NCBI GenBank assembly: GCA_024655865.1
Contig: JANLFM010000005.1
Span: 17,589 to 51,706 of the forward strand
Direction of reading: 5' to 3'
Length of the DNA: 34,118 nt
DNA from: Caldisericota bacterium
Lineage (GTDB): Bacteria; Caldisericota; JANLFM01
Of this stretch, positions 15,550-34,118 are shown one piece after another. The notes under the pieces are model-generated. The model had not been told where the DNA came from and did no database searches. It saw nothing but the letters and a program-made list of their open reading frames with translations. Every line of letters starts with the position of its first letter. Position 1 is the first letter of the stretch. Position numbers and translations under genes: made by a program.

Positions 15550-16178
15550 TACTGCCCTCCTTCTAATGAATTTCTTACTACTTGAGCCAGTGCCTGAAAA
15601 TCAAGAGCGCATTGAGACGCTTTCTCCACTTTGGATAAGGTTTCCCTACAAAATTCTTTATCTGTCACCCAGGTAAGGTTTATCAACGCGTTGAGCACAG
15701 AAGCCTGGATGGCTGATGCAGCAAAAAGACAAGCGATGCCAGTGTCTGAAAGTAAGTTCCGATTACCCTTTTCAAGAAGAAATTTGAAAACCGGGTAAAA
15801 GGAGGAGAGATTGTTAACCAATTCCAGGGGAACATTCACTGCTTTCTTTGCCGCAGCGAGGAGGCGATCGCTTCGGAGTGTCTCTCCCCTGGGAAGCCTT
15901 AAGGTTTCCCTAAGCTCCTGGAAGGCAAGCTCGTCCTCCTGAGCAAGGCGAAGAAAACTATACATTTTTGCTTTAAGGTCTTCCTCAATCCCCTTCATCT
16001 TCTCTTTAACTTCTTGAAACCTTTCACCCTGGGATAATGAAGCAACCATTGCCCCCAGGGCAAAGGTGAACGAAGAAACAATGGCGACAGCAGCTCCTCC
16101 TCCAGGGATGGGCTCTCGAGAGGAGAGTCTCTCTAAGAATTCGATCAATTTTTGCTCTTCGTAGGTCGAATCAGGCAT
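15549..16178 (-). CDS. FTCD_C / cyclodeaminase-cyclohydrolase family protein in the lysine operon
   Basis: A 209-residue protein of the formiminotransferase-cyclodeaminase C-terminal (FTCD_C, FchA-like) family. The N-terminal 'LSSREPIPGGGAAVAIVSSF' (about 18-37) is the family's conserved folate-site loop. The all-helical pattern, 'KKAVNVPLELV' and 'GNRNLLSDTGIACLFAASAIQASVLNALIN' match the later conserved helices. Family members release ammonia from 5-formimino-tetrahydrofolate or hydrolyse methenyl-tetrahydrofolate. Here it overlaps kce by 8 bases and thiolase by 1, the position where 3-aminobutyryl-CoA ammonia-lyase would be expected. A role in that deamination is a hypothesis only; ordinary folate one-carbon metabolism is the default. 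Confidence 0.85.
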   Translation of the reverse strand: MPDSTYEEQKLIEFLERLSSREPIPGGGAAVAIVSSFTFALGAMVASLSQGERFQEVKEKMKGIEEDLKAKMYSFLRLAQEDELAFQELRETLRLPRGETLRSDRLLAAAKKAVNVPLELVNNLSSFYPVFKFLLEKGNRNLLSDTGIACLFAASAIQASVLNALINLTWVTDKEFCRETLSKVEKASQCALDFQALAQVVRNSLEGGQ

Positions 16179-16986
16179 GCAGGTTCAAAATTTTTCTTGC
16201 TTCATCTGGCGTAGCTACTTCCCTTCCTAACTCCCGGGCAATCCTGACTACCCTCTCCACGAGCTGGGCATTGCTCTGAGCGAGCACTCCTCTGGAGTAA
16301 AAAATATTGTCCTCAAACCCCACGCGCACGTGGCCTCCCATGATAAGCGCCGCCACAGCCAAGGGTAACTCGAAACGTCCGATGCCGGCAACACTCCAGG
16401 TGGAGCCGGGAGGAATGCTCTCTACAAGATAGACCAAATCCCGAATATTTCCTGTGATCCCCCCGGGCACGCCCATAACAAAATCAAAATGCAAAGGTGG
16501 TTGCACAAGGCCTTTCTTTACCAATTGCAAGGCGTTATTGATCATTCCGGCTTCAAAAACCTCAATTTCTGGCTTAATCCCCATTTCCTTCATTCTCAAA
16601 GCAAAGTTTTCTATTAAATCCGGAGGGTTCCAAAAAACACCGGTACCAAAGTTCACGGTTCCACATGTCAAGGAGGCCATCTCTGGACGGAGCACGAGGG
16701 GGGCAGCTCTTTCTTCAGGAGTCATTCCTACTGCCCCACCAGTGGAAATTTGGATAATGATGTTACATCGGGATTTGATCAGTTCAATTGTCCTGCGAAA
16801 AATCTCCACGTTTTGAGTAGGGTTACCGTCCTGATCCCTGACGTGCAAATGAACCATGGATGCTCCCTGGAGGTAGCAATTATAGACGTCCTGGGTGATT
16901 TCCTCAGGAGTTATGGGCAGATTAGGGTTATCCTTTTTGGTTACTTCGGCTCCGCAGACAGCTACTGTGATTATCAGTTTTTCCAA
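16171..16986 (-). CDS. kce: 3-keto-5-aminohexanoate cleavage enzyme (BKACE family)
   Basis: A 271-residue BKACE-family protein. Kce condenses 3-keto-5-aminohexanoate with acetyl-CoA and splits it into acetoacetate and 3-aminobutyryl-CoA, using a divalent metal. The metal-binding 'MVHLHVRD' places histidines at 46 and 48, and E225 in 'RVGFEDNIFYSRG' is the matching acidic ligand; 'QISTGG' and 'SLTCGTVNFG' are further conserved blocks. BKACE members act on many beta-keto acids, but the operon with kamA, kamDE and kdd makes the lysine intermediate the likely substrate. It overlaps pyrG by 13 bases. Confidence 0.93.
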   Translation of the reverse strand: MEKLIITVAVCGAEVTKKDNPNLPITPEEITQDVYNCYLQGASMVHLHVRDQDGNPTQNVEIFRRTIELIKSRCNIIIQISTGGAVGMTPEERAAPLVLRPEMASLTCGTVNFGTGVFWNPPDLIENFALRMKEMGIKPEIEVFEAGMINNALQLVKKGLVQPPLHFDFVMGVPGGITGNIRDLVYLVESIPPGSTWSVAGIGRFELPLAVAALIMGGHVRVGFEDNIFYSRGVLAQSNAQLVERVVRIARELGREVATPDEARKILNLHA

Positions 16987-18587
16987 TTCTCGTTTGCCCT
17001 CCTTTTACAGGCTTTAACGAAGAAGTTAAAGAGTGGATTAGGCTTGCCTGGACGTGAAGTGAATTCTGGGTGGAACTGGCTACCCACGAACCAGGGATGG
17101 TCAGGGAGCTCAATTATCTCTGCCAGACCTTGCTTGGCATAAGTCCCTGAAACGATGAGACCGTTTTTTCCAAGGAGATCAAGGTAGTCGTTATTTACCT
17201 CATAACGATGTCGATGGCGTTCCCAGACAAGATCCAATCCGTAGGCTTCCCTGGCTTTTGAACCAGGGGTGACTCGACAGGGATAAGCTCCTAATCTCAT
17301 GGTGCCACCCTTTTTCCTGATTTCCCTTTGCCCTTTCATTAAATCGATTACCGGGTAAGGGGTATCCGGGTCAAATTCCGTGCTATTAGCTCCCTTTAGG
17401 CCGCAGACGTTTCGAGCGAACTCAATCACTGCGCACTGCATTCCTAAGCAGAGTCCCAGGAAAGGAATATTATTTTCCCGTACTATTTTAATAGCGCTGA
17501 TTTTCCCCTCCACCCCGCGTCGGTCAAAACCTCCTGGAACAATTACCCCATCCAGTTCCAGTAGAGAACGGAAGTTCTCCTCTTCATCAAGCTTATCCGC
17601 TGCAATCCACTGGATTTTTAAATCCGCCCGATTCTCGAGGGCAGCATGTTTCAGCGCCTCAATCACAGAGATATAGGTATCCTTCATCCCCACATATTTC
17701 CCTACAATGCCAATTTTTAAGACAGGTTTCTGTTCGCTCAGGATCAGGGATAACTCCTCCCATTTTCGAAGGTCTGGTTCCCCTTTGTAACCCAGGAATT
17801 CGGATAAAATATGCCCGAACCCAGCTTCTTCCAGAAACAGGGGAACCCTGTAAATGGAATCCAGGTCCGGAAGGGAAATCACCCCCTCGATTCCCACATC
17901 GCAGAAAAGCGCAACCTTGTCCCTCATAGCATGCGTCATAGGGGTTTTGGAACGGCATACTATCACGTCTGGTTGAATCCCAATACTTCGGAGCTCGCGC
18001 ACACTGTGCTGTGTAGGTTTTGTTTTTTGTTCTCCGGAAGTCTCCAGGAAAGGGACAAGGGTAGTGTGGATGTAAAAGGCGCCCTTGCCCTTGAGGTCGA
18101 GGCGAACCTGCCTAATAGCCTCGAGAAAAGGGAGCCCCTCAATATCGCCCACGGTGCCACCAATTTCCACAACCAGAACATCTGCTTTGGATTGTTCGGC
18201 TAATCGGTAGATGGCGTTTTTGATCTCGTTGGTGACGTGAGGGATCATTTGAACGGTTGCTCCCAGATACTCCCCCTTTCTTTCCTTAGAAATCACTGAG
18301 GAGTATATCTGCCCGGAGGTAACATTGGAAAGACCGGTAAGATCCTGGTCAAGGAATCTCTCATAGTGGCCCAAGTCCAGGTCTGTCTCTGTACCATCCT
18401 TCAGCACAAACACCTCTCCGTGCTGGTATGGGCTCATAGTCCCAGCATCAATGTTGAAATAAGGGTCAAACTTCAGCATGCTCACCCTTTTGCCACGTGC
18501 TTTGACCAAAGCACCGGTAGAGGCAGCCAATATGCCTTTACCTAATCCCGATACGACACCACCTGTGATAAAGATAAATTTAGTCAT
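16974..18587 (-). CDS. pyrG: CTP synthase
   Basis: A 537-residue CTP synthase, which aminates UTP using glutamine and ATP. The N-terminal synthase domain begins '[20 protein letters not shown]' and contains '[22 protein letters not shown]', both diagnostic. The C-terminal class I glutamine amidotransferase has the nucleophile in '[12 protein letters not shown]' and the His-Glu pair in '[12 protein letters not shown]'. The length is normal. It is unusually located inside the lysine fermentation operon, overlapping kamE by 4 bases (ATGA) and kce by 13, so it is likely co-transcribed with catabolic genes. Confidence 0.98.
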
Positions 18588-19330
18588 TTTTTCCTCATTT
18601 TGCGTTTCATTAGCTCATGAACAATAAAACTCGCCACCTGAAGGGGGGTTGTCCCTGGGCCAAATCCAGCATCAAAACCAGTTTCCAATGCTACTTGAGC
18701 GTTGATATAAGGTCCACCGCATATCAATATCAATTTATCCCTTAGCTTTTCAGCTTCTAAGAGCTCGGCAAGTAAGGAGAGATTGAAGAGATGGACATTC
18801 CTTTGAGTAACCACCTGGGACACCAAAACTACATCCGCATGAATCTTTTTAGAGTACTCTACCACTAACTCTGGCGGGACCTGGGCTCCGAGGTTAAAGA
18901 CTTCAAACTGAGGATAACGTTCCAAACCAGATTCTCCTCCGAAACCTTTGGCACTGATAATAGCATCGAGGCCCACGGTATGCGCATCAACTCCTATAGT
19001 AGCTCCGATCACAACGACTTTCCTTTCAAACTCCCTGCGGATTAGATCGTTTATTTCCCAGAAATCAAAAAGTTGGAGCTCTACCTCAGGGACATGAATG
19101 GCTTGGAGATCTACGGAGATATTAATCGCCCCGTAGAGGATATAAAAGGAAAAATTATTCCCCATATCCTGAGCATGAACCAATCGGATATTGTTCATCC
19201 CCATTCTGGCAGCAATTAACTTAACGGCCTCTATAGAGCGAGCGGAGACCGGAACTGGAAGGGAGAAGGAAATTTGAATAGCCCCATCGTTCATGCGGTC
19301 GCCATAGGGACGAACCTCGCCAATATTCAT
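18584..19330 (-). CDS. kamE: Lysine 5,6-aminomutase beta subunit
   Basis: The 248-residue adenosylcobalamin-binding subunit of lysine 5,6-aminomutase, which moves the 6-amino group of beta-lysine to carbon 5 to give 3,5-diaminohexanoate. The base-off B12 motif DxHxxG is at 115-120 (DAHTVG, H117). K128 in 'ISAKGFGGESGLERYP' lies 11 residues further, the same spacing as the known PLP Schiff-base lysine and cobalt-binding histidine of the Clostridium enzyme. The GG near 'LILICGGPYIN' is the second part of the B12 fold. It overlaps kamD by 4 bases (ATGA), consistent with stoichiometric subunit synthesis. Confidence 0.96.
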   Translation of the reverse strand: MNIGEVRPYGDRMNDGAIQISFSLPVPVSARSIEAVKLIAARMGMNNIRLVHAQDMGNNFSFYILYGAINISVDLQAIHVPEVELQLFDFWEINDLIRREFERKVVVIGATIGVDAHTVGLDAIISAKGFGGESGLERYPQFEVFNLGAQVPPELVVEYSKKIHADVVLVSQVVTQRNVHLFNLSLLAELLEAEKLRDKLILICGGPYINAQVALETGFDAGFGPGTTPLQVASFIVHELMKRKMRKK

Positions 19331-20889
19331 ACCGCCCTCCTTCTGGCTTGCATCACAATTTTTTTGTCCAGGAATGGGTTCAGGTAAAACTTTCCCTTTT
19401 TGAACACTCCCTCATACCCCCTACCTCCCCTTTTCTCTCTCTTGATTTGAGAAAAGACGCCTCTGGAAAGCGCATTCCAAATCCCAGCTTCTCTAATTTT
19501 TATTAAGGTCTCCATAGCCTGAGTAAGGAGCTCGCAGGCTCTCTTGTCCGCTTGACCGTTCCTGATAAATTGAAGCTCGCGAGAAAAGGATCGAGAAGCA
19601 TTGCGAATATGCAGGGCACTTTCCAGACTAAGGAATCTATCCTGGACATAAGGAGTATGAAGCGCCTCGGTTGGCATTCCCAGAAGCACTATTCTCTGAT
19701 CAGTCCAGACAGCCACGAGGTTAAAAATGGTATCCAGAGCGTGGGCGAAGAAAATATTGCCGGTTTTATACCTCGTAGGGGGCATAAATTTGACCGGGGA
19801 ACGAGGGAAAAGCTGGCGCACAAGCTGAGCCTGAGTTAACTCCCACAATAAGCTATCAGGGATTTTGGGGTCGAGTTCCGCTGCGTGCCCCAACCCGATT
19901 AGTTCTTTCTTCATCCCAGCCTGCTGAGCTAATTGCTCGTTAATAAACTGTGAGACCAGAACAATGCTATATTCCTTGAAGGCGTCCACTGTTTTGATCA
20001 GGTTATCCTCTCCTGTGGTGATGATGATGTCAAAGAGCCCCAGTAGGTACCGGGAGAAATGCTGATCAACCATGGTCCGGTACATATTGAGGTCCCGGAA
20101 GAGGATACCGTAGAAAGCGTCATTTACCATTATGTCCAGGCCCTCCAGGATTGCCAGGACTGCAATCTCAGCCATACACAATCCGGAGCAATAGTTTACC
20201 TGATAAATATAACGAGAAACCTTTTGAGCAACTTCATCCAAGGCTTGCCTCATAAGCCTGTAATTCGCTTGCGTAGCGAATGTGCCCCCAAACCCCTCAG
20301 TGGTAATGCCCTCAGGAATGTAATCCAGCAAGCTTTGAGCTGTAGAGCGAATTACAGCTACGCAGTCGGCGCCCTGTTCCGCAGCTGTTTTAGCTTGTGC
20401 TATGTCATCGTAGATGTTTCCCGTAGCAACAATCACGTAAAGCAGGGGGGGTAAAGATGGAGGAAAAGACTGCTTAAGGGCCTCCCTGGCTTTTTTCTTT
20501 TTATATAACCGGCTTAAGCTTTCAGTAGCTAATTCCTCAGCTTTATTCTTAACTTCTTGAAAGCTTTTTCTCGATAGGTGAACTGGATTAAAGGAGCCAG
20601 ACACTACCTTTAAGGCTACATCTTGGGGACTGAGCCCGGTATTTAAACAAGCATTAGCAATCCAGTAGAGCACCCCTTCTTCCAGGGCTTTTTGCTCTTT
20701 AAGATTATCCACCAGGATATTTACATAAGGAATTTTTTCCTTTTCCCCTTCGATCCCCAAAAGGCGCAAAATGGCTCGTTCTACGGAAACGGTGCTTAAT
20801 GGAGCAATATCTCTTTGGATTTCCAAGGCAACTTCCTTCGCAATCTGACGGCAAGCGTTTGCTTGCTCCTGAGATATGTTAAGCTTCAT
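19327..20889 (-). CDS. kamD: Lysine 5,6-aminomutase alpha subunit
   Basis: A 520-residue KamD, the TIM-barrel subunit that binds PLP phosphate and substrate in lysine 5,6-aminomutase. Family blocks include 'LLYVIVATGNIYDDIAQAKTAAEQGADCVAVIRSTAQSLLDY' (around 148-190), 'TTEGFGGTFATQANYRLMR' and 'QVNYCSGLCMAEIAVLA'. 'NDAFYGILFRDLNMYRTMVDQ' and 'KFMPPTRYKTGNIF' follow. The length matches the Clostridium protein. Its start is one base past the kamC stop, and its end overlaps kamE. Substrate specificity for lysine rather than ornithine is supported by the separate large alpha and small beta subunits and by the adjacent kamA and kdd. Confidence 0.96.
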   Translation of the reverse strand: MKLNISQEQANACRQIAKEVALEIQRDIAPLSTVSVERAILRLLGIEGEKEKIPYVNILVDNLKEQKALEEGVLYWIANACLNTGLSPQDVALKVVSGSFNPVHLSRKSFQEVKNKAEELATESLSRLYKKKKAREALKQSFPPSLPPLLYVIVATGNIYDDIAQAKTAAEQGADCVAVIRSTAQSLLDYIPEGITTEGFGGTFATQANYRLMRQALDEVAQKVSRYIYQVNYCSGLCMAEIAVLAILEGLDIMVNDAFYGILFRDLNMYRTMVDQHFSRYLLGLFDIIITTGEDNLIKTVDAFKEYSIVLVSQFINEQLAQQAGMKKELIGLGHAAELDPKIPDSLLWELTQAQLVRQLFPRSPVKFMPPTRYKTGNIFFAHALDTIFNLVAVWTDQRIVLLGMPTEALHTPYVQDRFLSLESALHIRNASRSFSRELQFIRNGQADKRACELLTQAMETLIKIREAGIWNALSRGVFSQIKREKRGGRGYEGVFKKGKFYLNPFLDKKIVMQARRRAV

Positions 20890-20890
20890 C

Positions 20891-22519
20891 TTACACCTTC
20901 TTTAAAAAAGTCTCGGCTAATTCTATCACAACCTCGTCTAAACCTAAAAGCAAAGCGATTTTTAGGGCATCATGGGGAACGGCTTGCTCTTTCTTTACCT
21001 TCTCCAGCCGATATTCCATCAGCGTTAAAATCAAGTCCTCACTTGCCCCCTTCACCAGAAGCTTTACCTGGTCCAGGCTGATGTTCCCCAGACCAGCCAT
21101 CTGCCAGTGCTCTACTCGGCAAACCCTAGCAAGTCCATCGAAATGGGAAGTAAAAAGGGAAGTGGATTTAGTATCACTCAAAAATTTTAGGATTGCAGCG
21201 TTGATGGCAAATCCTTCTTTAGGGTTCGTGCCCCGAGCGAGTTCGTCAACCAGGAAAAGGCCCCTCTTTTTGCTCAAGGACAGTGCCCTTTTTAATCCAG
21301 AAATCTCCGCACCGAAAGCGCTCAGTCCATCTTGCTCTTTCCCACGGGTTGAGAAAAAAACAAAATCAAAGGGGCGCAATTTGAAGGACTTTGCCGGGAC
21401 TAGCATTCCGTGTTGGGCAAGGCACACATTCAAACCCACTGTTTTGAGTAGAACTGTTTTGCCGCTCATATTAGCGCCTGTGAGCAAAGCAGCTCCTTCC
21501 TTGAGGTGAATGGAGAGTGGATGAAATCTGTAACCCTTTTCCTTGAGCCTTAAAGCGAGAGGCAAGTGCACTCCATTACTCATCGAGACTGAAGTTTTAC
21601 CCTCGCCTTTTAAGATTTGGGGCATGATACCCCCGTAATTTAAAGCGGCCTCAGATTTTGCAAGCAGGAAATCCAGGTAAGCTACCCTTTCTGTATCTTG
21701 CTCCAGGCTTTCGGCGAAATTGGCTACCTTTCGGGAAAGCACCTGGCAAACCTCCTTTTCCCTCTTTGCCTCTTCGACTTCTATTTCCTTGATCCTGCCG
21801 CTCCATTTTAGGGCTTCGGAGGAAAGGCGTGGGGCAAAGACCAGGGAATGCAGATTCTCGGATTTCAAGTAAATAAGGGGGTGAGACAAAATCTTTGAAG
21901 CCTCTGGGGTTTCTTTTTGCAGGGTAATTTCACCCTGGTGGAAATGTTCCAGACCCATTTTTCTGAGCTCTTCAACTATCCTGCTTTTTTCCTGCTCCAA
22001 CTTAGAGCGCAGCTCTAGCTTCTCACGCCTTAATTTTTTTAGCTGTGGAGAGTACTCGTCCACGAGGTAAAAGCTTTGGGGGCTTTGGTTACCTTTATTT
22101 AAGATACGAAAAAGGGCAGGCGCCCCTTTTGGCCTGAAGCGCGCAAGCCAGGAAAGTTCGCGGTTTCTCATCAATCCCTTTAGGTTCTCAAGGATAAACA
22201 AAAAACGCTTTATTTCGAAAAGTTCGGTCACGGAGAGCCTGCCGCCCTCCTTGGCCTTTTTCAAACTGTTTCTCAGGTCTTTAAGCTCCTGGAGGTTAGA
22301 GGAAAGCTGGTGTAGCCAATCTCGATTTTGGGAAATGAACTGGGAAAACTTTTGGCTTCTCCGTAATTCCTCTTTCAGTTCCTTTTCTTCCCCAGGTAAA
22401 TAGGGCTTAAGACGGTTTTTATATTGAAGCCCCAGGGGAGAGCGCACCTCTAACAAGGACAAAAGGTAGTCCCATTCTACTCTCTCCCGGGTGTCCCTAT
22501 CCAGAAAGAGATCACTCAT
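20891..22519 (-). CDS. kamC: MutS-like ATPase, presumed lysine 5,6-aminomutase reactivase KamC
   Basis: A 542-residue protein with a MutS-type ATPase at its C-terminus but no mismatch-recognition domain. Walker A 'GANMSGKT' is at 348-355, Walker B with 'FLVDELARGTNPKEG' at 422-436, and the switch histidine at 459 in 'FTSHFDG'. The first half is a charged helical and coiled-coil lever/clamp region (about 50-290). MutS-like proteins of this kind occur in lysine 5,6-aminomutase operons and are annotated as the reactivase ATPase KamC that exchanges damaged cobalamin. Its position between kamB and kamD fits. DNA repair would be the alternative, but the operon argues against it. Confidence 0.85.
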   Translation of the reverse strand: MSDLFLDRDTRERVEWDYLLSLLEVRSPLGLQYKNRLKPYLPGEEKELKEELRRSQKFSQFISQNRDWLHQLSSNLQELKDLRNSLKKAKEGGRLSVTELFEIKRFLFILENLKGLMRNRELSWLARFRPKGAPALFRILNKGNQSPQSFYLVDEYSPQLKKLRREKLELRSKLEQEKSRIVEELRKMGLEHFHQGEITLQKETPEASKILSHPLIYLKSENLHSLVFAPRLSSEALKWSGRIKEIEVEEAKREKEVCQVLSRKVANFAESLEQDTERVAYLDFLLAKSEAALNYGGIMPQILKGEGKTSVSMSNGVHLPLALRLKEKGYRFHPLSIHLKEGAALLTGANMSGKTVLLKTVGLNVCLAQHGMLVPAKSFKLRPFDFVFFSTRGKEQDGLSAFGAEISGLKRALSLSKKRGLFLVDELARGTNPKEGFAINAAILKFLSDTKSTSLFTSHFDGLARVCRVEHWQMAGLGNISLDQVKLLVKGASEDLILTLMEYRLEKVKKEQAVPHDALKIALLLGLDEVVIELAETFLKKV

Positions 22520-23444
22520 TTAATTTTAAATTGATGACTTTTAAGGGTCCAAGCATTTCGCTAGTCCTGATGAGGAATTCTCTGGGATTTATGGAAAACC
22601 CGGAGCTGGAACAGGGGTTCAGGGTTACCAAAGCTATTGGTGAATGAAAACAGGACTTAAAAATCCATCCATCCCTTTTGAGGTTGCGCCAGGCTGAACT
22701 GGAGAGGAAAAGTTGCCAAGGTTCCTCAACGATTACGGGTAAACTGGTTTTCCAGCCAGCGATCAGGTTTACAGATCCCCCAACAAAGGCGCCAGGCCAG
22801 AATATCTCCTCTGCCTCTAGAAGCAAATTAGCAGGTATATCCTTGATGTCAAAAGGAATCCATTTTTCCTGCACCTTAGCATAGTGCTTATCAAAAGAGG
22901 GTGGTAGCGAAGTAGCAACAGGAATGCTGAGCACTTCAACCTGGCTTTGGATTTCCTCGTACATGGAGTCCCGATCAGAAAAATCAATTCCTGCTGAGAG
23001 AATAAAGCAATCGCAAACCCTTGAGGAGGAAGAGGATTTCTTGTCCAGAACGCTATCAATGACTACTAAGTCGCAGCCCAACGAGAGAAGCCTGTCTTTG
23101 ATTTTTTTAAGATCACTCAAGCATAATGGGCCAGCGATAATTGTTTGTATATCCTCTTTCGCCCTGCCAATCACCACGGGACCCCATGGGGTTTCGGCAT
23201 CGGTTTCGTCAAGAAGCTCCAGTTTTTTCGCGATTTCGCAGTTTTTGGCCAAAGCGATTAGTGAATTCTGGGGGATCTCAAGTAGTGTTTGGGTTCCACC
23301 AAGGCCAAAGGAGGTAATACCTAACCTCCGATCCTTTTGAGCCTCAGCCAGAATATAATTGCAGGTTGTAGTTTTTCCGCTCCCTTTGCCGGTGCCGACC
23401 ACGGAGACTGCTCGGCACCCCTTCAAAAGGGGGAGAATCCGCAT
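22512..23444 (-). CDS. kamB: Presumed lysine 5,6-aminomutase reactivase subunit KamB
   Basis: A 310-residue protein with an N-terminal P-loop GTGKGSGKT (17-25) and a 'DLVVIDSVLDKKSS' Walker B-like segment in its middle. It is the family always seen next to the MutS-like kamC in lysine aminomutase operons, hence the reactivase assignment (operon-based knowledge). ATG 23444 overlaps the kamA stop by one base (TGATG) with GGAGG 8 bases upstream. An upstream in-frame ATG at 23543 would overlap kamA by 100 bases and adds a sequence without family character. It overlaps kamC by 8 bases. The biochemical action is not visible from sequence. Confidence 0.82.
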   Translation of the reverse strand: MRILPLLKGCRAVSVVGTGKGSGKTTTCNYILAEAQKDRRLGITSFGLGGTQTLLEIPQNSLIALAKNCEIAKKLELLDETDAETPWGPVVIGRAKEDIQTIIAGPLCLSDLKKIKDRLLSLGCDLVVIDSVLDKKSSSSSRVCDCFILSAGIDFSDRDSMYEEIQSQVEVLSIPVATSLPPSFDKHYAKVQEKWIPFDIKDIPANLLLEAEEIFWPGAFVGGSVNLIAGWKTSLPVIVEEPWQLFLSSSAWRNLKRDGWIFKSCFHSPIALVTLNPCSSSGFSINPREFLIRTSEMLGPLKVINLKLNE

Positions 23445-24658
23445 CAAGAATTCCTCCTTCGACCAATGTTCCCCTCCAGGATACTGGGCGAGGGAACCCC
23501 TTCTCTCTGGCAATGAGGGCAAGTAGAGGGGTCGTGGGAACAATACTCTTCAGGCTGGGGGTAAGAATAAACCTCTCCCCTAAAGTTGCGCAACACAACC
23601 TTCTCTGGAGAAAGAGAGAGCAAGTAATTGGGGCAAAGGGGGATTTTGCCTCCCCCCTCAGGGGCATCGACCACAAAGGTGGGAACTGCCATTCCCGACG
23701 TGTGTCCCCTCAGGCTTTCGATAATTTCTATCCCTCTGAGAACCGAGGTCCGGAAATGCCCGATTCCCTCTGAGAGGTCACATTGGTATATGTAATAGGG
23801 CCGCACGCGGATTTTTAAGAGCTCATGCACCAGTTTTCTCATCACAGTAGGGCAATCGTTTATTCCTTTAAGCAGGACGCTCTGGTTCCCGAGGGGAATT
23901 CCTGCATCCGCCAGGCGGATGCAGGCTTCCGCTGATATGGGAGTTATTTCCTTCGGATGGTTGAATTGAAGGTTAACCCAAATTGGATGATACTGGCGCA
24001 ACATGTTCACAAGTTCCGGGGTGATTCTTTGGGGCATGGTCACCGGTGCCCTAGTACCAATGCGAATTATTTCTACATGTGGGATCTTGCGCAGTTCCCT
24101 AAGCAGGTATTCCAGAAGCTCATCGGAAATTAAAAGTGCGTCGCCCCCGGAAAGTAAAACGTCTCTGACTACTTTGGTTTCCCTGATGTAATTGAGACAT
24201 CGATCGAGCTCTTCCTTGGATCGGGAGCGGTCAAAGGTCCCAGCAAAGCGGCGTCGCGTGCAGTGGCGGCAGTACATAGCACATTGATCGGTGATTAAAA
24301 AAAGCACTCTATCGGGGTAGCGATGTGTAAGCCCGGGGACTGGTGAATCCCTCTCTTCTGCCAAAGGATCGTGAAGGTCAAACTTGCTTCTGTGTGTTTC
24401 CAGAACCGAAGGCACGGATTGAAGGCGAATCGGGCAATTCCGGTCAACCGGGTCCATCAATGTAGCAAAATAAGGCGTTATGGCCATACGAAAAACTTGA
24501 AGTGCTCTCCTTATGCCCTCTTCTTCCTCAGGATCGATATTTATTACTTGTTTTAATTCCTCAATATTGGTAATCCGATTTTTAACCTGCCAGCGCCAAT
24601 CGTTCCATTGGCTTTCTTGAATATCCTTCCAGAGCGGAATTTCTCTCCAGTCCCTCAT
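23444..24658 (-). CDS. kamA: L-lysine 2,3-aminomutase
   Basis: A 404-residue radical SAM/PLP enzyme converting L-lysine to L-beta-lysine. The cluster motif CxxxCxxC is at C126, C130 and C133 (CAMYCRHC). The PLP Schiff-base lysine is K338 in 'PEGGGKIP'. D294 (YQCDLSEG) and D331 (VVDAPEGG) correspond, with an offset of one, to Asp293 and Asp330 that bind the substrate side chain in the Clostridium enzyme, which favours lysine over glutamate as substrate. C269 and the C-terminal cysteines C373, C380 and C383 could provide the structural zinc site. The gene is 11 bases downstream of kdd. Confidence 0.96.
   Translation of the reverse strand: MRDWREIPLWKDIQESQWNDWRWQVKNRITNIEELKQVINIDPEEEEGIRRALQVFRMAITPYFATLMDPVDRNCPIRLQSVPSVLETHRSKFDLHDPLAEERDSPVPGLTHRYPDRVLFLITDQCAMYCRHCTRRRFAGTFDRSRSKEELDRCLNYIRETKVVRDVLLSGGDALLISDELLEYLLRELRKIPHVEIIRIGTRAPVTMPQRITPELVNMLRQYHPIWVNLQFNHPKEITPISAEACIRLADAGIPLGNQSVLLKGINDCPTVMRKLVHELLKIRVRPYYIYQCDLSEGIGHFRTSVLRGIEIIESLRGHTSGMAVPTFVVDAPEGGGKIPLCPNYLLSLSPEKVVLRNFRGEVYSYPQPEEYCSHDPSTCPHCQREGVPSPSILEGNIGRRRNS
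23901..23925. repeat. Perfect 12-bp inverted repeat inside kamA
   Basis: The arms CCTGCATCCGCC (23901-23912) and GGCGGATGCAGG (23914-23925) are exact reverse complements around a single A. They lie within the codons for ACIRLADAG of kamA, a conserved region. A 12-bp perfect pairing with a one-base centre is unlikely by chance in a window this size, but no function is evident. In RNA the tight centre would form a loop by opening a base pair on each side. Confidence 0.8.
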
Positions 24659-24669
24659 ATACTCCTCCC

Positions 24670-25710
24670 CTAAATGAACATTCTTTCAAACATTTCTCTC
24701 AACTTGGGGCTTTCCCTTAAAAGATGAAGGGAGATTTTATCGTGCCCCTGAGCATAACCATTTCCAATGATCATTGTCACATCCTTGCCAATTCCCTCTG
24801 CTCCTAGTGCTGCAGCAGTGAAACTGGTCGCCATGCTGAAAAAGTAAACAATTCCTCCGTCTCGAGTGCTCATAATGGAAGCCATTTCCGTTCCGGGGAT
24901 ATTTACACAATTGATAGTAACGTCGGCCAGCTTCCCCTGAGTAAGCTCCATCATTTTTTCGTAAACCTCCACGGGCTTAGTAGCGTCTCCCTGAAAAGCG
25001 ATGTCGGCAAAGCCGCTTTCCTCAATCCTTTTTGTACTCTCCTTGCTGTGACCTAAACCGATAACTTTTCCTGTTACCCCTGCCCTTTTTCGAGCCTCAT
25101 AGAGGCAAAGCAGGCCGGATTTACCCCCGGCTCCAATAATGAGCACCGTATCTCCCGGTTTGACCAGCCTGGCCGTTTGAGCTGGAGCACCTGCTACATC
25201 TAAAACAGCCAGGCACAGCTTATCAGGAAGATCGGATGGTAATTTAGCATAGACCCCGGATTCAAAAAGAATGGCCAAACCATCCACTTCCACCTGGTCT
25301 TTGTCCATGTCGATTTTCTTTATGCGCTTAAGAAGGAGGGGTGTAAGGCTCAGGGAAACCAGGGAAGCAATGCGATCTCCCTCTTTCAGGTCAATTTTCG
25401 CTTTTAGCGCCGGACCTATAGTCTTCACGGTTCCAATAAACATGCCTCCGGAACCGGTAACCGGGTTATGCATTTTCCCCCTTTCTTTTATTATCCTCTT
25501 GATCTGACCAGCGATTTTTTGAGGGTCTCCCCCCGCTTCTTCCTCTAACTGGGTGAAGCTCGCAGCATCTATATTTAATCGCTCAACTTTAACCAGGATC
25601 TCGTTGTCGTAAATGTGATCCATGTTATTGTTTAGTTTCCACGCTGCCTGGGGCATAACCCCAATTGGCTCTATAACCCGATGAGTTCCGAAAGGTGATC
25701 CTATTCCCAT
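24670..25710 (-). CDS. kdd: L-erythro-3,5-diaminohexanoate dehydrogenase
   Basis: A 346-residue Kdd, which oxidatively deaminates 3,5-diaminohexanoate to 3-keto-5-aminohexanoate with NAD+. The N-terminus 'GSPFGTHRVIEPIGVMPQAAWKLNN' is highly characteristic of the family. The Rossmann nucleotide-binding loop is 'VLIIGAGGKSGLLCLYEARKRAG' with substitution-free GxGGxSG. 'VNIPGTEMASIMSTRDGGIVYFFSMATSFTAAALGAEG' is a late conserved block. The length matches known Kdd. It lies 17 bases downstream of argS and 11 upstream of kamA, so it opens the lysine-specific part of the operon. Confidence 0.96.
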   Translation of the reverse strand: MGIGSPFGTHRVIEPIGVMPQAAWKLNNNMDHIYDNEILVKVERLNIDAASFTQLEEEAGGDPQKIAGQIKRIIKERGKMHNPVTGSGGMFIGTVKTIGPALKAKIDLKEGDRIASLVSLSLTPLLLKRIKKIDMDKDQVEVDGLAILFESGVYAKLPSDLPDKLCLAVLDVAGAPAQTARLVKPGDTVLIIGAGGKSGLLCLYEARKRAGVTGKVIGLGHSKESTKRIEESGFADIAFQGDATKPVEVYEKMMELTQGKLADVTINCVNIPGTEMASIMSTRDGGIVYFFSMATSFTAAALGAEGIGKDVTMIIGNGYAQGHDKISLHLLRESPKLREMFERMFI

Positions 25711-25727: not shown

Positions 25728-27362
25728 TTACATTTTCTCAGGGGCAGAGAGCCCCAGTATTTTTAGAATATTTGATAGAACCACCCTAATTGCTTTGACG
25801 AGGGCGAGCCTGGAAATTTCTACCTTTTCCTCTGCACCCAGAACTCGGTGATCGTGATAAAAAGCATGGAACTCACCGGCTAGGTCTTTAGCAAAATTTG
25901 CAAGCCTCAGGGGCGTCATGGTAACTGCCGCTTTCAAGATTTCCTGCGGCATCAGCGCCAGGAGGGCTATTAGTTTCCTCTCCGGCTCTCCAAAAGTAGG
26001 AGAAATATTTTCAATCTCTGGCAGCTTCTTCCCCCTGGCTTGAGCCTCTCTCTCGATAGAAAGAGCCCTCGTGTAAGCATACTGGAGATAGTAAACCGGG
26101 TTATCCATTGTGCGCTCCCTGGCTAAGTCCAGGTTAAAATCGAGATTGGAATCTATTCCTGTGTTGAGAAGGAAAAAGATAGTGGCATCTTTTCCCACCG
26201 TTTCCACGAGCTCATCCAAGGTTAAAAACTCTCCGGTCCTTTTGGACATGGAGACTTCCTCCCCGCCCTCGAACAGTTTCACTATCTGGTAAATGATTAA
26301 GATCAAGTTCTTAGAATCATATCCTAAAGCCTCGAATGCTGCCTTGTTCCTGGGCACATATCCATGATGGTCCGGACCCCAGATGTCAATGATTATCTGA
26401 AAACCCCGGGAAACTTTGTTCAGGTTGTAGGCAATGTCCCAGGCAAAATAAGTGGGCTCCCCGTTGGAACGTATCACTACCCTATCCTTGTCATCTCCGA
26501 ACCTGGAGGACGCAAACCAGATTGCGCCGTCCTTCTCGTAGAGGTATCCTCTTTCCTTGAGGACGGAAAGAGCCCGGTCCAACCACCCTTCTTTAAGGGA
26601 ACTCTGAGGGAACCAGACGTCAAACTCGATTCCTAAATTGGAAAGGGTTCTCTGATGTTGGGCCCGCATAATTGTCAGACCTTCTTCGCGGAAAACCTTC
26701 AGCCTTTCTTGTTCCTTGAGTTCCAGGAGTTGAGATCCGTATTTAGAAGCGATCTCCTCAGCAATTTTTCTTACATATTCCCCGTAATAACCGTTCTCCG
26801 GGAACTGGAAAGGCTGACCCAAATGCTCACGATAGCGGGCCTCGATAGAAAGAACGAAAGCATCCACCTGGGTTCCTACATCGTCGAAGTAGTACTCCCT
26901 GGTAACATCGTAACCCACCGCATCCCACAAATTGGAAAGGACGTGTCCCAGGCAAGCGCCGCGAGCATTACCCAAATGAATCGGCCCTGTGGGGTTGGCA
27001 CTGCAGAATTCGATGTTCGTCCTGATTCCTTTACCGTAGTCCCAATAGCCGTATTTCTCTTCTTTCTGGAAGACCTCCCTCAGTATTTGAAGCATACCCT
27101 CATCCTGGAGAATAAAGTTCAAAAACCCTGGTGGGGCTACCTCCACTGTTATCTTTTGAGAAAGGCGATCTAAAAGGCGCTCACGCAAAAAACTGGCGAT
27201 CTCCATCGGGTTTTTCTTCAACTGCCGTGCTGCCTGGAAAGCAAAGTTAGTGGAAAAATCACCAAATTTCCCGCCCTGTTCCCATAAGGGCTCCAGTTCT
27301 AACGTTGAATATTGAGATAGAGCAGAGCGAAGCTCTGCGCCCAGGTTTTCCAGAAAATACAT
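25728..27362 (-). CDS. argS: Arginyl-tRNA synthetase
   Basis: A 544-residue class I arginyl-tRNA synthetase. The N-terminal additional domain (about 1-110) includes 'FGDFSTNFAFQAARQLKKNP'. The HIGH-type motif is 'SANPTGPIHLGNARG' (HLGN at 129-132), and the KMSKS-type motif is 'SMSKRTGEFLTLDELV'. The C-terminal DALR anticodon-binding domain contains 'NPVYYLQYAYTRALSI' at its start. The second histidine of HIGH is Asn, a variation known in other ArgS proteins. ATG 27362 is 3 bases after purB. It is probably co-transcribed with purB and the lysine genes. Confidence 0.97.
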   Translation of the reverse strand: MYFLENLGAELRSALSQYSTLELEPLWEQGGKFGDFSTNFAFQAARQLKKNPMEIASFLRERLLDRLSQKITVEVAPPGFLNFILQDEGMLQILREVFQKEEKYGYWDYGKGIRTNIEFCSANPTGPIHLGNARGACLGHVLSNLWDAVGYDVTREYYFDDVGTQVDAFVLSIEARYREHLGQPFQFPENGYYGEYVRKIAEEIASKYGSQLLELKEQERLKVFREEGLTIMRAQHQRTLSNLGIEFDVWFPQSSLKEGWLDRALSVLKERGYLYEKDGAIWFASSRFGDDKDRVVIRSNGEPTYFAWDIAYNLNKVSRGFQIIIDIWGPDHHGYVPRNKAAFEALGYDSKNLILIIYQIVKLFEGGEEVSMSKRTGEFLTLDELVETVGKDATIFFLLNTGIDSNLDFNLDLARERTMDNPVYYLQYAYTRALSIEREAQARGKKLPEIENISPTFGEPERKLIALLALMPQEILKAAVTMTPLRLANFAKDLAGEFHAFYHDHRVLGAEEKVEISRLALVKAIRVVLSNILKILGLSAPEKM

Positions 27363-27365
27363 CCC

Positions 27366-28673
27366 TTAATGTAGCTCCTCTTCTTCCAGTGTAAAAATAC
27401 GCTCAATGTTTTCGAAAAAGGCGTTCGGGTTAAAAGCCTGATTAAGCTCATCTTTGGTAAGAGTGGTTTTTACAAGTTCATCTTTTTCAGCCAGAGAGCG
27501 CAGGTTCTCCTGATTCCTTATGGCCTCAAAAGATAGCCTCTGGACCGTTTGGCTTGCTTTCTCTCGGGAAATCCCCTTGCGCACTAAAGCCAGGGTAAGG
27601 TTTTGGGAAAAAATTAAGCCACGAGTTAAATTAATATTTTCCACCATTCGGCCTTCATCCACATCAAGGGTTTCCAGAATGCTATGCAGAGTGCGTAGCA
27701 TATAAGCGGTAATGTTTGTGGTCAGGGGAGCTACAATTCGCTCTACGGAAGAATGGGAAATGTCACGTTCATGCCAGCTGGGTATGTTTTCCAGAACAGA
27801 AAAGGAGTTATGCCTAACAACTCTGCTCAGTCCGCAAAGTTGCTCTGAGAGCACGGGGTTTCTTTTATGAGGCATAGCTGAGGATCCCATTTGTCCTGAG
27901 AAGAAGGGCTCAGACACCTCCCCTATTTCAGACCGTTGAAGATTTCTGATCTCAGTAGCAACTTCTTCTACTACAGATGCAATCATGGCTAAAGCGAGAA
28001 AGAATTGGGCATAAATATCCCTGGGGATAATCTGAGAAGTAATAACCAGGAGGTTCAAACCCAAAATTTGACATGCCCGTCGCCCTATTTCTAAGGAAAG
28101 GCCGTGATAAGTCCCTACTGCGCCAGAAAATTTACCCACCGAAATCCTGGAAATAGCACTGTCGAGGTTTTCCGCCTGGCGCTCAAAAGCTTTCTTGTAC
28201 CGTAAAAGCTTTAAGCCAAAGGTAATAGGTTCGGCATGAATTCCGTGGGTCCTGCCAATCATGGGAAGGTCTCGATAACGCTTAGCTTGAGAATGTAAGA
28301 CTTCAATCAAGCGCTCCAACTCGGCGCTGATTATCCTCCCTGATTCCTTTAATATCAAGGAGAATGAGGTGTCCTTAATATCCTGCGAAGTGAGGCCTTC
28401 ATGGAAGTAGCGAAAATCTTCGCCCAGCCTTTTTTCCACTGCCCTCAAGAAGGCTACCAGGTCATGCCTGGTTTGAGCTTCTAATTCCTTGACTTCTTCT
28501 ACAGAACCAAAGGACGCCCTTTCTTTGATTCTCAACCAGGCTTCTTCCGGGATATCCCCCAGTTCCGACCTCGCCTGCAAGTAAGCAAGCTCTACCTTCA
28601 ACCAAGTCGAAAGCAGGTTTTGTTCTTCCCAGAGAGCTTCGATCTCAGGACAAAAGTAGCGGGTAAAGCTCAT
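27366..28673 (-). CDS. purB: Adenylosuccinate lyase
   Basis: A 435-residue member of the fumarase/aspartase superfamily that releases fumarate from adenylosuccinate and SAICAR in purine synthesis. The superfamily signature 'GSSAMPHKRNPV' (about 262-273) is intact, and 'GRTHGIHAEPITFG' and 'EGLTSQDIKDTSFSL' are PurB-specific conserved blocks. ATG 28673 is preceded by an extended -10 promoter only 7 bases away, and there is no ribosome binding site, so translation may be leaderless. It is the first gene of the long operon that includes argS, pyrG and the lysine fermentation genes. Confidence 0.97.
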   Translation of the reverse strand: MSFTRYFCPEIEALWEEQNLLSTWLKVELAYLQARSELGDIPEEAWLRIKERASFGSVEEVKELEAQTRHDLVAFLRAVEKRLGEDFRYFHEGLTSQDIKDTSFSLILKESGRIISAELERLIEVLHSQAKRYRDLPMIGRTHGIHAEPITFGLKLLRYKKAFERQAENLDSAISRISVGKFSGAVGTYHGLSLEIGRRACQILGLNLLVITSQIIPRDIYAQFFLALAMIASVVEEVATEIRNLQRSEIGEVSEPFFSGQMGSSAMPHKRNPVLSEQLCGLSRVVRHNSFSVLENIPSWHERDISHSSVERIVAPLTTNITAYMLRTLHSILETLDVDEGRMVENINLTRGLIFSQNLTLALVRKGISREKASQTVQRLSFEAIRNQENLRSLAEKDELVKTTLTKDELNQAFNPNAFFENIERIFTLEEEELH

Positions 28674-28680
28674 ATAATAA

Positions 28681-28689
28681 ATAATATCA
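28681..28689 (-). promoter_or_regulatory. Extended -10 promoter for purB, predicted leaderless transcript
   Basis: On the minus strand TGATATTAT combines the extended TGn element with TATTAT (5 of 6 of the -10 consensus). Exactly seven bases separate it from the purB ATG, the usual distance from -10 to the start of transcription. A -35 like TTTACC is present at a short 15-bp spacing. The match of the extended -10, the unit boundary and the lack of a Shine-Dalgarno sequence agree with each other. Confidence 0.6.
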
Positions 28690-28739
28690 TTTTTTCGCTG
28701 CGGTAAAAAGGATGAAATGTTAAGCAGAGAATCGAGAGG

Positions 28740-29579
28740 TTACCTTTCTACCTCTTCTACTTCTTTATACCAGGGAATGGAAGTACCCTTTCTGGACCTT
28801 TTGACCCATTGCGGAGTTTTAGGTTCCTCCTCAATGCGCTTCAGCAAAAATTCTGTCTGCTTATTAACCATGTCGTAGAGCGCATTCTCGATACTGCCCG
28901 ATTCTTTAGCCTCTGTGGCGAAGCTTAAAAGTTTATTCAAATTCATACAGGCGTCGTACCAGAAGCCCCAGGAACCAGCAAGAGTTCTGGAGATATGGGC
29001 AACGTTGATGCTCTCCTTCTCCTCGGACTCCGAGAATGGGTGGGAGGCGAAAAGGACTAAGAGGTCAATCAGGTCTTTCCTGTTAATCTCATGAATTTGA
29101 AGTTTTTCCAAGACCACGTCCGCAAGGCTGATTGTGGGAAAATCCACCTCTAACCTCCCCTTTCCAGGTACCCTGCCAAACTCTACAGGGTGGGAGAAGT
29201 CAAGAAGATCGTAAAAGATATCCACATCAAACAGGCCTTGCGGATGTTGAAAGATGTTCCTCCTGAAAGCGAAGATGGAATTGACATAGACATTGGGCTT
29301 GTAGCCCATTTCCTTTTCCAAAAATTTTCGCACTTCTACTGCTTGCCTGGAGTAGGCCATAAGATCGAGATCCGTGAAAATAGGCTGTCCTTCTCCCAGG
29401 CGGCCGAGCGAGAAAAATAACTTCCTTTGCTCAGGAGCATGCTCTGTGTGCAGATATACTGCAAGGGCGCCGAGAATCCTCAAGTAAATTCCCTTTTCCT
29501 GGGCTTTTTGAACTAAATTAAGGGCCTCCTTCAGGAAAAGCTCTGGCTCCAGATGGACAAACTTCTTTTCCACTTTCAC
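28740..29579 (-). CDS. Nucleotidyltransferase-fold protein of unknown role
   Basis: A 279-residue protein with features of the DNA polymerase beta-like nucleotidyltransferase fold. 'LRILGALAVYLH' (33-44) occupies the hG[GS] loop position, the DxD pair 'TDLDLMAY' gives D70 and D72, and 'FDVDIFYD' (117-124) supplies a third acidic strand. 'ISLADVVLEKLQIHEINRKDLIDLLVLF' is a helix pair like that of AbiEii-type and related domains. The glycine loop is GA rather than GG or GS, so activity is uncertain. It begins with GTG just after the metallophosphoesterase stop and is probably co-transcribed. The function is not known to me. Confidence 0.65.
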   Translation of the reverse strand: MKVEKKFVHLEPELFLKEALNLVQKAQEKGIYLRILGALAVYLHTEHAPEQRKLFFSLGRLGEGQPIFTDLDLMAYSRQAVEVRKFLEKEMGYKPNVYVNSIFAFRRNIFQHPQGLFDVDIFYDLLDFSHPVEFGRVPGKGRLEVDFPTISLADVVLEKLQIHEINRKDLIDLLVLFASHPFSESEEKESINVAHISRTLAGSWGFWYDACMNLNKLLSFATEAKESGSIENALYDMVNKQTEFLLKRIEEEPKTPQWVKRSRKGTSIPWYKEVEEVER

Positions 29580-29581
29580 CC

Positions 29582-30529
29582 CTATCCCTGGATTTTCCAG
29601 TAATTTTCCACGCCAGCGGGCGTGATATTAATAATGAAGCCCCTGAGCAGACCCTCGCCGTATTCTGAGCCAGGGTTGAGACAAAGGGTCTTTCCTATCA
29701 TGTCAAAACCACTGGACTCATGGATATGCCCGTGAAGACAGAGCAATGGTTGGTATCTCTCAATGGCCTGGCGCACCGAGGTGGAACCCACATGCACAAA
29801 TTTCACGCCATCCAGGCCTGCGACCAGTTTGAGCGATTTATCAAGTTTGGGCGCCAGATCGAGATTGGTATTAGAAGGAGGGCAATGGACATTCCAGATC
29901 GAGTTTTTCACGTTTTTGAGCTGAGAGATTTTTTCCTCCAGCCGTCGCCTGATACCCCTCTCATCGTCCTCCCGGGGAGTATTCCACGGAGTTGGGTTAA
30001 CGTATTCAAAGCTGAGAACCTCGTGTCCTTCCAGTTCAAAAATTCTATCTAAAGGGTAAATAATACCCGCGCCTTCAAATTCCTTAATTACGCCATCTAT
30101 CACCAGTTCGTCATCATTTCCAGGCATCACCACTGTGATAATTTTCCGGGTATCGATTTTCTCCACTAAGAGTTTAAGCCACTCCCTCATTCTTTCTACC
30201 ATTTTTTGCTTCATCAGCTCTTCCACTTTAGAAGAATCCTTCTTCAACTCCTCCACGAAATCAGGATCGCAGCGCACGGAATAAACTCCCCCGTTAGCCA
30301 GTTTCCTTTCAATGTCCTGAATTTCCTCTTCGCTTTTCAAGAGCCATGTTTGACCAAAGTAAGCCGTTTTGTAGGTTCCATCCTTTTGTCGAATTATAGG
30401 GACCAAAGCCTTTCCCGTAAGGTCTCCGGCCAGGATCAGGGCTTGAGCCTCATACATGCTCACAGCAGTAATCCATTTGCGCCAGACGGTAGTGGCACCA
30501 TGTACATCCACTGCGAAAAATATCCTCAT
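29582..30529 (-). CDS. Calcineurin-like metallophosphoesterase
   Basis: A 315-residue protein with the full metallophosphoesterase motif series: D8 and H10 (DVHG), D36 (AGDLTG), N138-D139 in MPGNDD, H215 in 'NVHCPP', and H268/H270 in 'LHGHIHESSG'. The last part 'CLNPGSEYGEG' is the usual final strand. There is no signal peptide, so it is cytoplasmic. An insertion of about 70 residues (roughly 48-120) between the second and third motifs, lysine/glutamate-rich, is atypical. The ATG has an AGGAGGAAGC site, just after the GAAA-loop hairpin. The substrate cannot be told from sequence. Confidence 0.85.
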   Translation of the reverse strand: MRIFFAVDVHGATTVWRKWITAVSMYEAQALILAGDLTGKALVPIIRQKDGTYKTAYFGQTWLLKSEEEIQDIERKLANGGVYSVRCDPDFVEELKKDSSKVEELMKQKMVERMREWLKLLVEKIDTRKIITVVMPGNDDELVIDGVIKEFEGAGIIYPLDRIFELEGHEVLSFEYVNPTPWNTPREDDERGIRRRLEEKISQLKNVKNSIWNVHCPPSNTNLDLAPKLDKSLKLVAGLDGVKFVHVGSTSVRQAIERYQPLLCLHGHIHESSGFDMIGKTLCLNPGSEYGEGLLRGFIINITPAGVENYWKIQG

Positions 30530-30542
30530 GCTTCCTCCTTTT

Positions 30543-30570
30543 TTCAGGGCCCCCTTTCGGGGGCCCTGAA
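30543..30570 (-). other. Very stable GAAA-loop hairpin between permease and phosphoesterase genes
   Basis: Reading the minus strand, 12-nt arms TTCAGGGCCCCC and GGGGGCCCTGAA pair perfectly around the tetraloop GAAA, a GNRA-class loop. It lies 15 bases after the permease stop and 13 bases before the phosphoesterase start. No T-tract follows (the next bases are A and the ribosome binding site), so it is not a classic intrinsic terminator. It may protect the 3' end of the permease mRNA or reduce read-through and downstream expression. Confidence 0.8.
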
Positions 30571-30585
30571 TCTCAAAAGCTTTGC

Positions 30586-32184
30586 TTAAGCGGGTGGGAT
30601 CTCCGTAAAAATCTTGGTGGGGTCGATTCCCTCTTTCCTGTTTCTCCTGTACATGTAGGCCACAAAAATCAGCCCTACAAGGATAAACAGGGCAACCCCA
30701 ATCTGAGACCAGATATTAGTTAGTTCCAGACCTACGGTAAGCATGATCCAGAATCCCACTCCAAACGTAATTGCACCCAGAACAGATACCCAGGGAAATC
30801 CAAAAATTTTGTACTGGAAAGTGGACTTCTCAAAAAGGTCCGGACGGGTAAAGGGCAGGAACATGGCTGCAAGACCTAAGGGCCAGATGAAGAACATGCA
30901 GGTGAAGTCCTCAATTGCCAGCATGACTGAGGAAAGTGCAGCTCCTAAAGAATCTCCCAGCCCGATAAATACTCCCAATAATGCAAAAATACCAATCAGA
31001 TGATTTGCCCATGTCGGGGCTCCCTTGCGGTTGACTTCAGTTAGTTTGGTAGGGAGCAAGCGATCAAAAGCCATAGCAAAAATCCCGCGCACTCCCGCCA
31101 TCCAGATGATCATGGAGGTGTTCAGGTACCAGAGGAAATACCCGATACCGAATATGATGGCAAAGGTTGAGGACCCCATGATCAACGAGGCGTAGAAGGG
31201 AATAGAGGGTGCCGCGGGTGTCACTCCCAGCAAGCTCTGAAGTTGATCAGTCTGGTTGTAGTAAAGCCAGCTGTAGTTCCTGATGAAATCACCACTAAAG
31301 GCTACCTGGACAGCCCAGGCATTGAGGATGTAGAGCAGACCTACTGCTACAATACCGATGAGCATACCTCGCAGGAAGCTCTTGCGCGGCGTTTTTACCT
31401 CGCTCCCCACGAAGGAAACAGCTTCTGCCGCAGTATAAGCCCAGAGCACGGAGAGTAACATACCCTGGAGGGCCTCCCCCGGGGACATCATGGATCCAGC
31501 AATATCCAGATCATTAGCCAGGCTGTTCACTTTATCATACATTCCTGCGCCATAAACAGAGTCAAATGCTTGCGTTCCGGATCCTACAAAAAAAGCTATT
31601 ATGGCGATCGCGGTGACGATTAGGGGAAGATATATCAGCACGCGCAGAACCCATTTTAGCCTGCTTAAACCCAACAATTCCAGGAACCAGATGATCACCG
31701 TAAGACCCAGTGCAATCCAGAGCCTGATCCAGGGATCGGCGAGTGATTCACCGATCGCAACCAGGGAAGCATGTTTAGTGATCTGCCCCGCAACCTGCAA
31801 GCTACTGGCAATCGGAATCAATCCCAGATAATTTAAGAAGCCAACCGCCAGCGCTGCACCACCACCAAGTACATAGGTCCAGTTAGGAATGAAGCCAAAA
31901 AGTGGATGGAGAACCCGAGAAATCACCACGTAGAGAGAGCCGCTTCTGGGAAAGGAGGAAGCAAAGATTGCCAGGACGATGACCGGAAAGATCCAGATAA
32001 TGAGGCCAACCAGAAATGCAAGCACGATGTTACCGCCGGGATAGAGGCCAGGCACTTTAACAGTGTAGTAGGTCATACCTGAGGCTGCTGGGCCAGCAAG
32101 CGTGAAGAGAAGAACGTCCCACCAGCTAAGCTCCCTTACCAGACCTGAAGCTCTTCTTGCGAAGACAACTGTTTCTTCGCCCAT
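30586..32184 (-). CDS. APC-family amino-acid permease
   Basis: A 532-residue membrane protein of the amino acid-polyamine-organocation superfamily. About 12-14 hydrophobic segments are visible. 'SWWDVLLFTLAGPAASGMTYY' (about 19-39) corresponds to the substrate-binding first helix, and 'YTAAEAVSFVGSEVKTPRKSFLRGM' (about 250-275) is the conserved helix 6-7 segment with the family's 'EVKxPRK' motif. The substrate is not readable from sequence. Given the lysine operon just downstream, lysine or another amino acid import is plausible but unproven. Its ATG has a G-rich site (AAGGGGGG) 11 bases upstream, and a stable hairpin follows the stop codon. Confidence 0.88.
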   Translation of the reverse strand: MGEETVVFARRASGLVRELSWWDVLLFTLAGPAASGMTYYTVKVPGLYPGGNIVLAFLVGLIIWIFPVIVLAIFASSFPRSGSLYVVISRVLHPLFGFIPNWTYVLGGGAALAVGFLNYLGLIPIASSLQVAGQITKHASLVAIGESLADPWIRLWIALGLTVIIWFLELLGLSRLKWVLRVLIYLPLIVTAIAIIAFFVGSGTQAFDSVYGAGMYDKVNSLANDLDIAGSMMSPGEALQGMLLSVLWAYTAAEAVSFVGSEVKTPRKSFLRGMLIGIVAVGLLYILNAWAVQVAFSGDFIRNYSWLYYNQTDQLQSLLGVTPAAPSIPFYASLIMGSSTFAIIFGIGYFLWYLNTSMIIWMAGVRGIFAMAFDRLLPTKLTEVNRKGAPTWANHLIGIFALLGVFIGLGDSLGAALSSVMLAIEDFTCMFFIWPLGLAAMFLPFTRPDLFEKSTFQYKIFGFPWVSVLGAITFGVGFWIMLTVGLELTNIWSQIGVALFILVGLIFVAYMYRRNRKEGIDPTKIFTEIPPA

Positions 32185-33273: not shown

Positions 33274-33282
33274 CAGCGCCTC

Positions 33283-33984: not shown

Positions 33985-34052
33985 TCTAACTTTTAAGCCC
34001 TCAATAATAGACCCCACCATTGCTGCTATCGACATACTCCTTCTTTTTTTGT

Positions 34053-34061: not shown

Positions 34062-34118
34062 TAGCTGAAGTTTGTAAAGGGTAAACCGAAGAATTTAATG
34101 TTAAAATACAGATACTCA

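Follow-up and report, generated by a model that had tools for sequence, protein, structure and literature searches.

Leaderless genes are found in 207 of the 953 bacterial genomes covered by the survey of Zheng et al. (2011; PMC3160421), whose section 7 does not name the Coprothermobacterota. A TANNNT motif is present ∼6–7 bp upstream of open reading frames in Deinococcus-Thermus, and experiments in Deinococcus show that it is the promoter -10 element of leaderless genes (PMC12340547). The Coprothermobacteria have been placed in a group with the anti-Shine-Dalgarno sequence UCACCUCCUU (PMC10783764).

The locus described here is located in a stretch of DNA of 34,118 nt from a Caldisericota bacterium, termed the window. 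The window genome (G000) has one congener in its family (G001), and three family members are labelled Coprothermobacterota in public records. At the time of the 2011 survey, Coprothermobacter was counted with the Firmicutes. Leaderless initiation itself is already known; for this lineage (Coprothermobacter, Caldisericum) no earlier report of leaderless genes was found in the open-access literature. On the sequence evidence, the mRNA of the window gene purB is probably leaderless and starts at the start codon. This reading is supported by a spacing between promoter and start codon that is conserved in five of five family genomes, by an enrichment of gene starts specific to that spacing, and by the pyrimidine found before the A of the start codon.

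The purB start site in the window

The purB gene, encoding adenylosuccinate lyase, spans 27366..28673 on the minus strand, and its product scores 452 bits against NCBIfam TIGR00928 (cut-off 326). The original prediction had placed an extended -10 sequence seven bases before the purB ATG, with no Shine-Dalgarno sequence in the space, unlike most genes of the window; both statements are borne out. The plus strand at 28671..28689 reads CATATAATAAATAATATCA, with TGATATTATTTATTATATG as its reverse complement, and the minus strand at 28689..28671 is thus TGATATTAT-TTATTAT-ATG. The extended -10 element TGATATTAT (28681..28689, minus strand) was read directly, is also found by a genome-wide pattern and was compared with relatives. 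It is followed by the 7-nt spacer (28674..28680) and the ATG (28671..28673), whose A at 28673 is the predicted transcription start, based on the PurB N-terminal alignment and a class-wide pyrimidine before the A. The site lacks a good -35 and is not among the matches of a sigma-70 scan. A weak and doubtful -35-like hexamer, TTTACC, was noted by eye at 28702..28707 of the minus strand (4/6 positions, spacer 15 nt), and it too is absent from the scan list.

The 22 nt before the purB ATG contain no Shine-Dalgarno consensus match with GG; the longest stretch in agreement is TGAT, at a distance of 12 nt. Among 30 other window starts, at least 19 have a match of at least 4 nt containing GG, a lower bound in that one longest match was scored per gene; several of the starts are uncertain, and one further start was left out. 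A 16S rRNA was sought in order to read the anti-Shine-Dalgarno, and none was found in the G000 bin.

An open reading frame of 435 codons begins with the ATG at 28673, which is the only plausible start. Translation from an internal start, named at the outset as an outcome that would refute the prediction, is implausible because PurB relatives align from the N-terminus and have in common an RY..PEI motif from residue 5; in G001, moreover, an in-frame stop lies 5 codons upstream of the purB ATG with no other start in between. The window PurB is 55–56% identical to that of three MAGs labelled Coprothermobacterota bacterium, Lac Pavin. A second purB (L053) is present in the G000 bin at G000:C24:344-1594. 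It is 44% identical, has an ordinary AGGAGG before its start, and represents either a paralog or a contaminating contig.

The likely reading is that 28681..28689 holds an extended -10 promoter of housekeeping sigma type, from which RNA polymerase would initiate at the A of the start codon or at the base preceding it. The purB mRNA would then lack a leader, and the 5′-terminal AUG would be recognised directly by ribosomes, as in other bacterial leaderless mRNAs.

The region upstream also bears on a different origin of the message. The gap between purB and the upstream gene is 66 nt, the genes called from 28740 to 34062 are all on the same strand, and a terminator scan found no terminator between purB and the upstream gene; longer transcripts that extend beyond the purB promoter may therefore also exist. 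This arrangement would suit translation of purB chiefly from leadered mRNA, formed by read-through out of the permease-phosphoesterase genes or from an upstream promoter, with the -10-like sequence being incidental and the AT-rich, Shine-Dalgarno-free region serving initiation, as an AT-rich unstructured leader can do. However, the layout is kept in G003, which has a different nearest upstream homolog and no AT-richness in the spacer or its flanks, and the gene-start enrichment described below is specific to 6–7 nt among three spacings tested. Translation of purB mainly from a leadered transcript is accordingly rated unlikely.

Conservation of the purB promoter among relatives

The distance from the -10 to the ATG in related genomes had been proposed as a check on a leaderless purB. 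It is kept at 6–7 nt in all five family genomes searched, each of which displays the layout TGNTANNAT, 6–7 nt, ATG at purB. The sequences are TGATATCAT-TTATTT-ATG in G001, TGGTAGAAT-CACACT-ATG in G003 and TGTTACCAT-CAATGG-ATG in both G002 and G004. Between G000 and G001 the purB intergenic DNA has diverged, with a 12-base alignment gap, and the -10-to-ATG stretch TGATATYATTTATT is kept. G002 and G004 are identical over 38 nt before the ATG and unlike further upstream. By eye, no Shine-Dalgarno sequence is present before purB in G001 and G003. For G002 and G004 there is less to support a leaderless message: the hexamer is only TACCAT, a G precedes the ATG and GGGGGAG is found 15 nt upstream.

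The promoter layout is constant among family genomes in which the upstream homolog changes. Among homologs of window genes, the one closest upstream of purB is the BON-domain gene in G002, G003 and G004, and in G000 and G001 it is the 28740-29579 gene. The 28740-29579 gene encodes a 279-amino-acid protein with no Pfam match, and its G001 relative is 73% identical.

Outside the family, the layout was not seen at purB in the rows readable on the right strand (these exclude L028-L030 and five of L001, L006, L008, L010, L014 and L025, the sixth being the window, which was re-read), and purB is mostly found close behind another open reading frame. At several loci of the phylum outside the family (L009, L011-L013, L015, L021, L023 and L024) an open reading frame ending in GPD.K.TI-like residues was recognised by eye directly before purB; we take it to be probably purA. 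Given these loci, a purB promoter standing on its own may be a feature of the family of G000 to G004 only.

Spacing and preceding base at gene starts

A strict pattern, TGNTANNAT-N6/7-ATG, was written after inspection of the upstream regions of the five purB genes. That it recovers purB in G001, G003 and G002 is therefore no independent evidence, unlike the enrichment at gene starts and the ortholog pairs other than purB. G000 and G001, scanned in full, contain 14 and 15 matches, and the reversed pattern occurs 3 times in each. A gene start was defined as an open reading frame of at least 90 amino acids opened by the match and preceded by no more than 60 open codons. By this definition, 19 of the 29 matches at gaps of 6–7 nt are gene starts, two of the 19 being purB, versus 3/20 at control gaps of 11–12 and 0/16 at gaps of 2–3 (Fisher, 1.3e-6). 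Two open reading frames of the 19 look non-coding (L061, L076), and L079/L080 are near-identical copies; without the two doubtful cases and one near-duplicate the proportion is 16/26 (p 1.1e-5). Gene starts at gaps 6–7 number 10/19 in G003 and 11/23 in G002, the control gaps having been read singly in G000 and G001.

Raw counts taken over the family display only moderate enrichment, with 86 matches at gaps 6–7 versus 40 and 63 at the control gaps, and in G002 taken by itself gaps 11–12 give 25 matches and gaps 6–7 give 23. Sums over the phylum cover families f4 and f5, with f2, f3, f6 and f7 left out. In f4 (15 genomes) there are 225 matches versus 119 and 150 at control gaps, and in f5 (5 genomes) 290 versus 325 and 287; from these raw counts, not read gene by gene, a leaderless-type class may be present in f4 and none is visible in f5. 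The whole genome of the distant G057 has 24 matches at gaps 6–7, with the control gaps giving 2 and 6; this pattern would represent a leaderless-like signature in another lineage.

Five G000/G001 ortholog pairs have the layout in common, with identities of 72% (purB), 81%, 71%, 82% and 93%. The four pairs other than purB would correspond, in that order, to HypF, a HAD hydrolase, a type IV pilin and an AMMECR1-family protein, which are presumptive assignments. The purB gene is the sole strict-motif case in all of G000, G001, G002 and G003, which comprise three genera and in which matches were read singly; one weak further pair, L069/L138, joins G000 and G003 at 34% identity.

Sigma-70-like matches in 27000-30600 number 3 versus a shuffle mean of 3.9, and this want of excess is what would be expected if the purB -10 were a chance promoter likeness of AT-rich intergenic DNA. 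Conservation of the layout in the five family genomes searched, together with the genome-wide spacing test, speaks against chance, and its probability is next to negligible.

The base before the ATG provides a separate indication. In four genomes a pyrimidine is found there in 21/24 gene starts with a gap of 6 (p = 3e-7) and in 10/16 with a gap of 7, four of these 40 gene starts being purB; the background is 72/215 ATG genes of a G000 sample. With doubtful cases dropped, gap 7 alone gives 8/14, which is not significant (p = 0.086), and the window purB site has a gap of 7, with T before the A. Matches at control gaps are without pyrimidine bias (6/19 at gaps 11–12 and 6/14 at gaps 2–3, where 3 of 36 matches were left out for short loci). 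Since bacterial polymerases favour a pyrimidine at -1 followed by a purine at +1, the pyrimidine-A bias fits a transcription start at the A. The start could also be placed a few bases upstream of the ATG or inside the open reading frame, with a real promoter producing a near-leaderless purB mRNA (2–8 nt leader) or an internal start. Spacers of 6 nt and of 7 nt both occur, in keeping with such a shift, and the choice of transcription start site varies by a few bases. The pyrimidine-A step nonetheless favours a start at the ATG, and an internal start would lose the N-terminal motif common to PurB relatives. We consider a displaced start very unlikely.

The start at the ATG would make purB one of a small number of genes that are probably leaderless. 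In G000, 8 of the 14 strict matches are gene starts, one of them doubtful (L061), which is about 0.5% of the gene total, put at 1,594. A plain hexamer agreeing at 5/6 or more positions gives 13 hits at gaps 6–7 in the 182 head genes sampled from G000 and G001, versus about 3.4 expected from other gaps, and none in 187 inside genes of the same samples. The strict-motif and plain-hexamer counts indicate that leaderless genes are a minority here. A looser group of hexamers near 29–36 nt would be ordinary leadered promoters. A profile of the extended motif over gene calls of a genome sample was noisy, with only 3 cases at gaps 5–9, and was set aside; the first gene caller used on the sample gave 196 genes, which was too few, and was replaced by one that gave 330.

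Short open reading frames are found at a few of the matches. L064 and L081 (G000:C21 and G001:C22, around position 1501) have matching promoters, TGGTAATAT-7 nt-ATG, and the ATG opens an 8-codon open reading frame (MTGRQFLK and MKKRRLEG) that ends 2–3 nt before the ATG of seemingly orthologous membrane-protein genes. Either these messages have a ∼29-nt leader that begins with ATG by coincidence, or a leaderless mini-ORF is conserved here. At L060 and L072 (G000:C3 and C61, around position 1501), an extended -10 is followed after 6–7 nt by an ATG that opens a 7-codon open reading frame, shortly ahead of a longer one.

The purB-argS-lysine gene cluster and known systems

On the minus strand, purB is followed after 3 nt by argS (arginine--tRNA ligase, 25728..27362, above the TIGR00456 cut-off) and then by genes of lysine fermentation, all on the same strand. 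These are kdd (3,5-diaminohexanoate dehydrogenase, 24670..25710, NF052381, with the Shine-Dalgarno sequence AAGGAG), kamA (lysine 2,3-aminomutase, 23444..24658, TIGR03820), a kamB-like gene of uncertain start (lysine 5,6-aminomutase reactivase subunit, 22512..23426), kamC (reactivase ATPase, 20891..22519, NF052383), kamD (lysine 5,6-aminomutase alpha, 19327..20889, NF052384), kamE (lysine 5,6-aminomutase beta, 18584..19330, NF052385) and kce (3-keto-5-aminohexanoate cleavage enzyme, 16171..16986, NF052387). All are above the cut-offs of the models named, except the kamB-like gene, which scores 152.5 bits against NF052386, below the cut-off of 210. A gene that we take to be pyrG lies between kamE and kce, and downstream of kce come a cyclodeaminase-like and a thiolase gene.

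The original prediction extended a leaderless mRNA from purB to the whole lysine operon. The purB part is supported by the conserved spacing, the enrichment and the pyrimidine; for the lysine genes, one transcript from purB onwards is plausible. In favour are the short gaps or overlaps from purB to the thiolase gene in the window and the order purB-argS-kdd-kamA-kamB, which is found in 5/5 genomes. Against this, the aligned parts in G002 are ∼120 nt apart between purB and argS and ∼115 nt apart between argS and kdd, distances that leave room for promoters. It is possible that internal promoters in the cluster, or read-through from upstream genes, take the place of one purB-led transcript; promoter-like and terminator-like matches exist in the cluster, not above shuffles. 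A transcript starting at purB would probably continue through argS into the lysine-fermentation genes. Ordinary Shine-Dalgarno matches are present at kdd, kamA, kamE, kamD, kce and the thiolase gene. Leaderlessness would thus concern the first gene, purB, only, the lysine genes being mostly of the ordinary Shine-Dalgarno type.

As a prediction with comparative support, leaderless initiation is extended here to an uncultured lineage, and a short list of candidate leaderless genes is supplied. For gene-start annotation, the -10 element marks the start codon. It can be proposed, as a tentative and rather doubtful suggestion, that a few leaderless genes on extended -10 promoters have been conserved as a set in the family, and that the leaderless head of purB could tie expression of the purB-argS-lysine fermentation operon to conditions favouring leaderless initiation. 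The connection to lysine fermentation is suggestive only, and nothing useful on lysine fermentation in this phylum was found among the literature matches listed.

With respect to known systems, the strict-motif share found here is far below the 20–40% given for Actinobacteria and Deinococcus-Thermus (PMC3160421). The purB site differs from the Deinococcus-Thermus motif (PMC12340547) in that the extended form TGNTANNAT was searched here, few genes carry it and it is known from sequence alone. It resembles the TA-led genes of the 2011 survey, in which a TA-like signal ∼10 bp before the start codon replaces the Shine-Dalgarno sequence, and also in the TG before the Pribnow box, which is there present in several low-GC genomes (PMC3160421). 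As in Deinococcus-Thermus, the -10 motif at purB is situated 6–7 nt before the open reading frame (PMC12340547).
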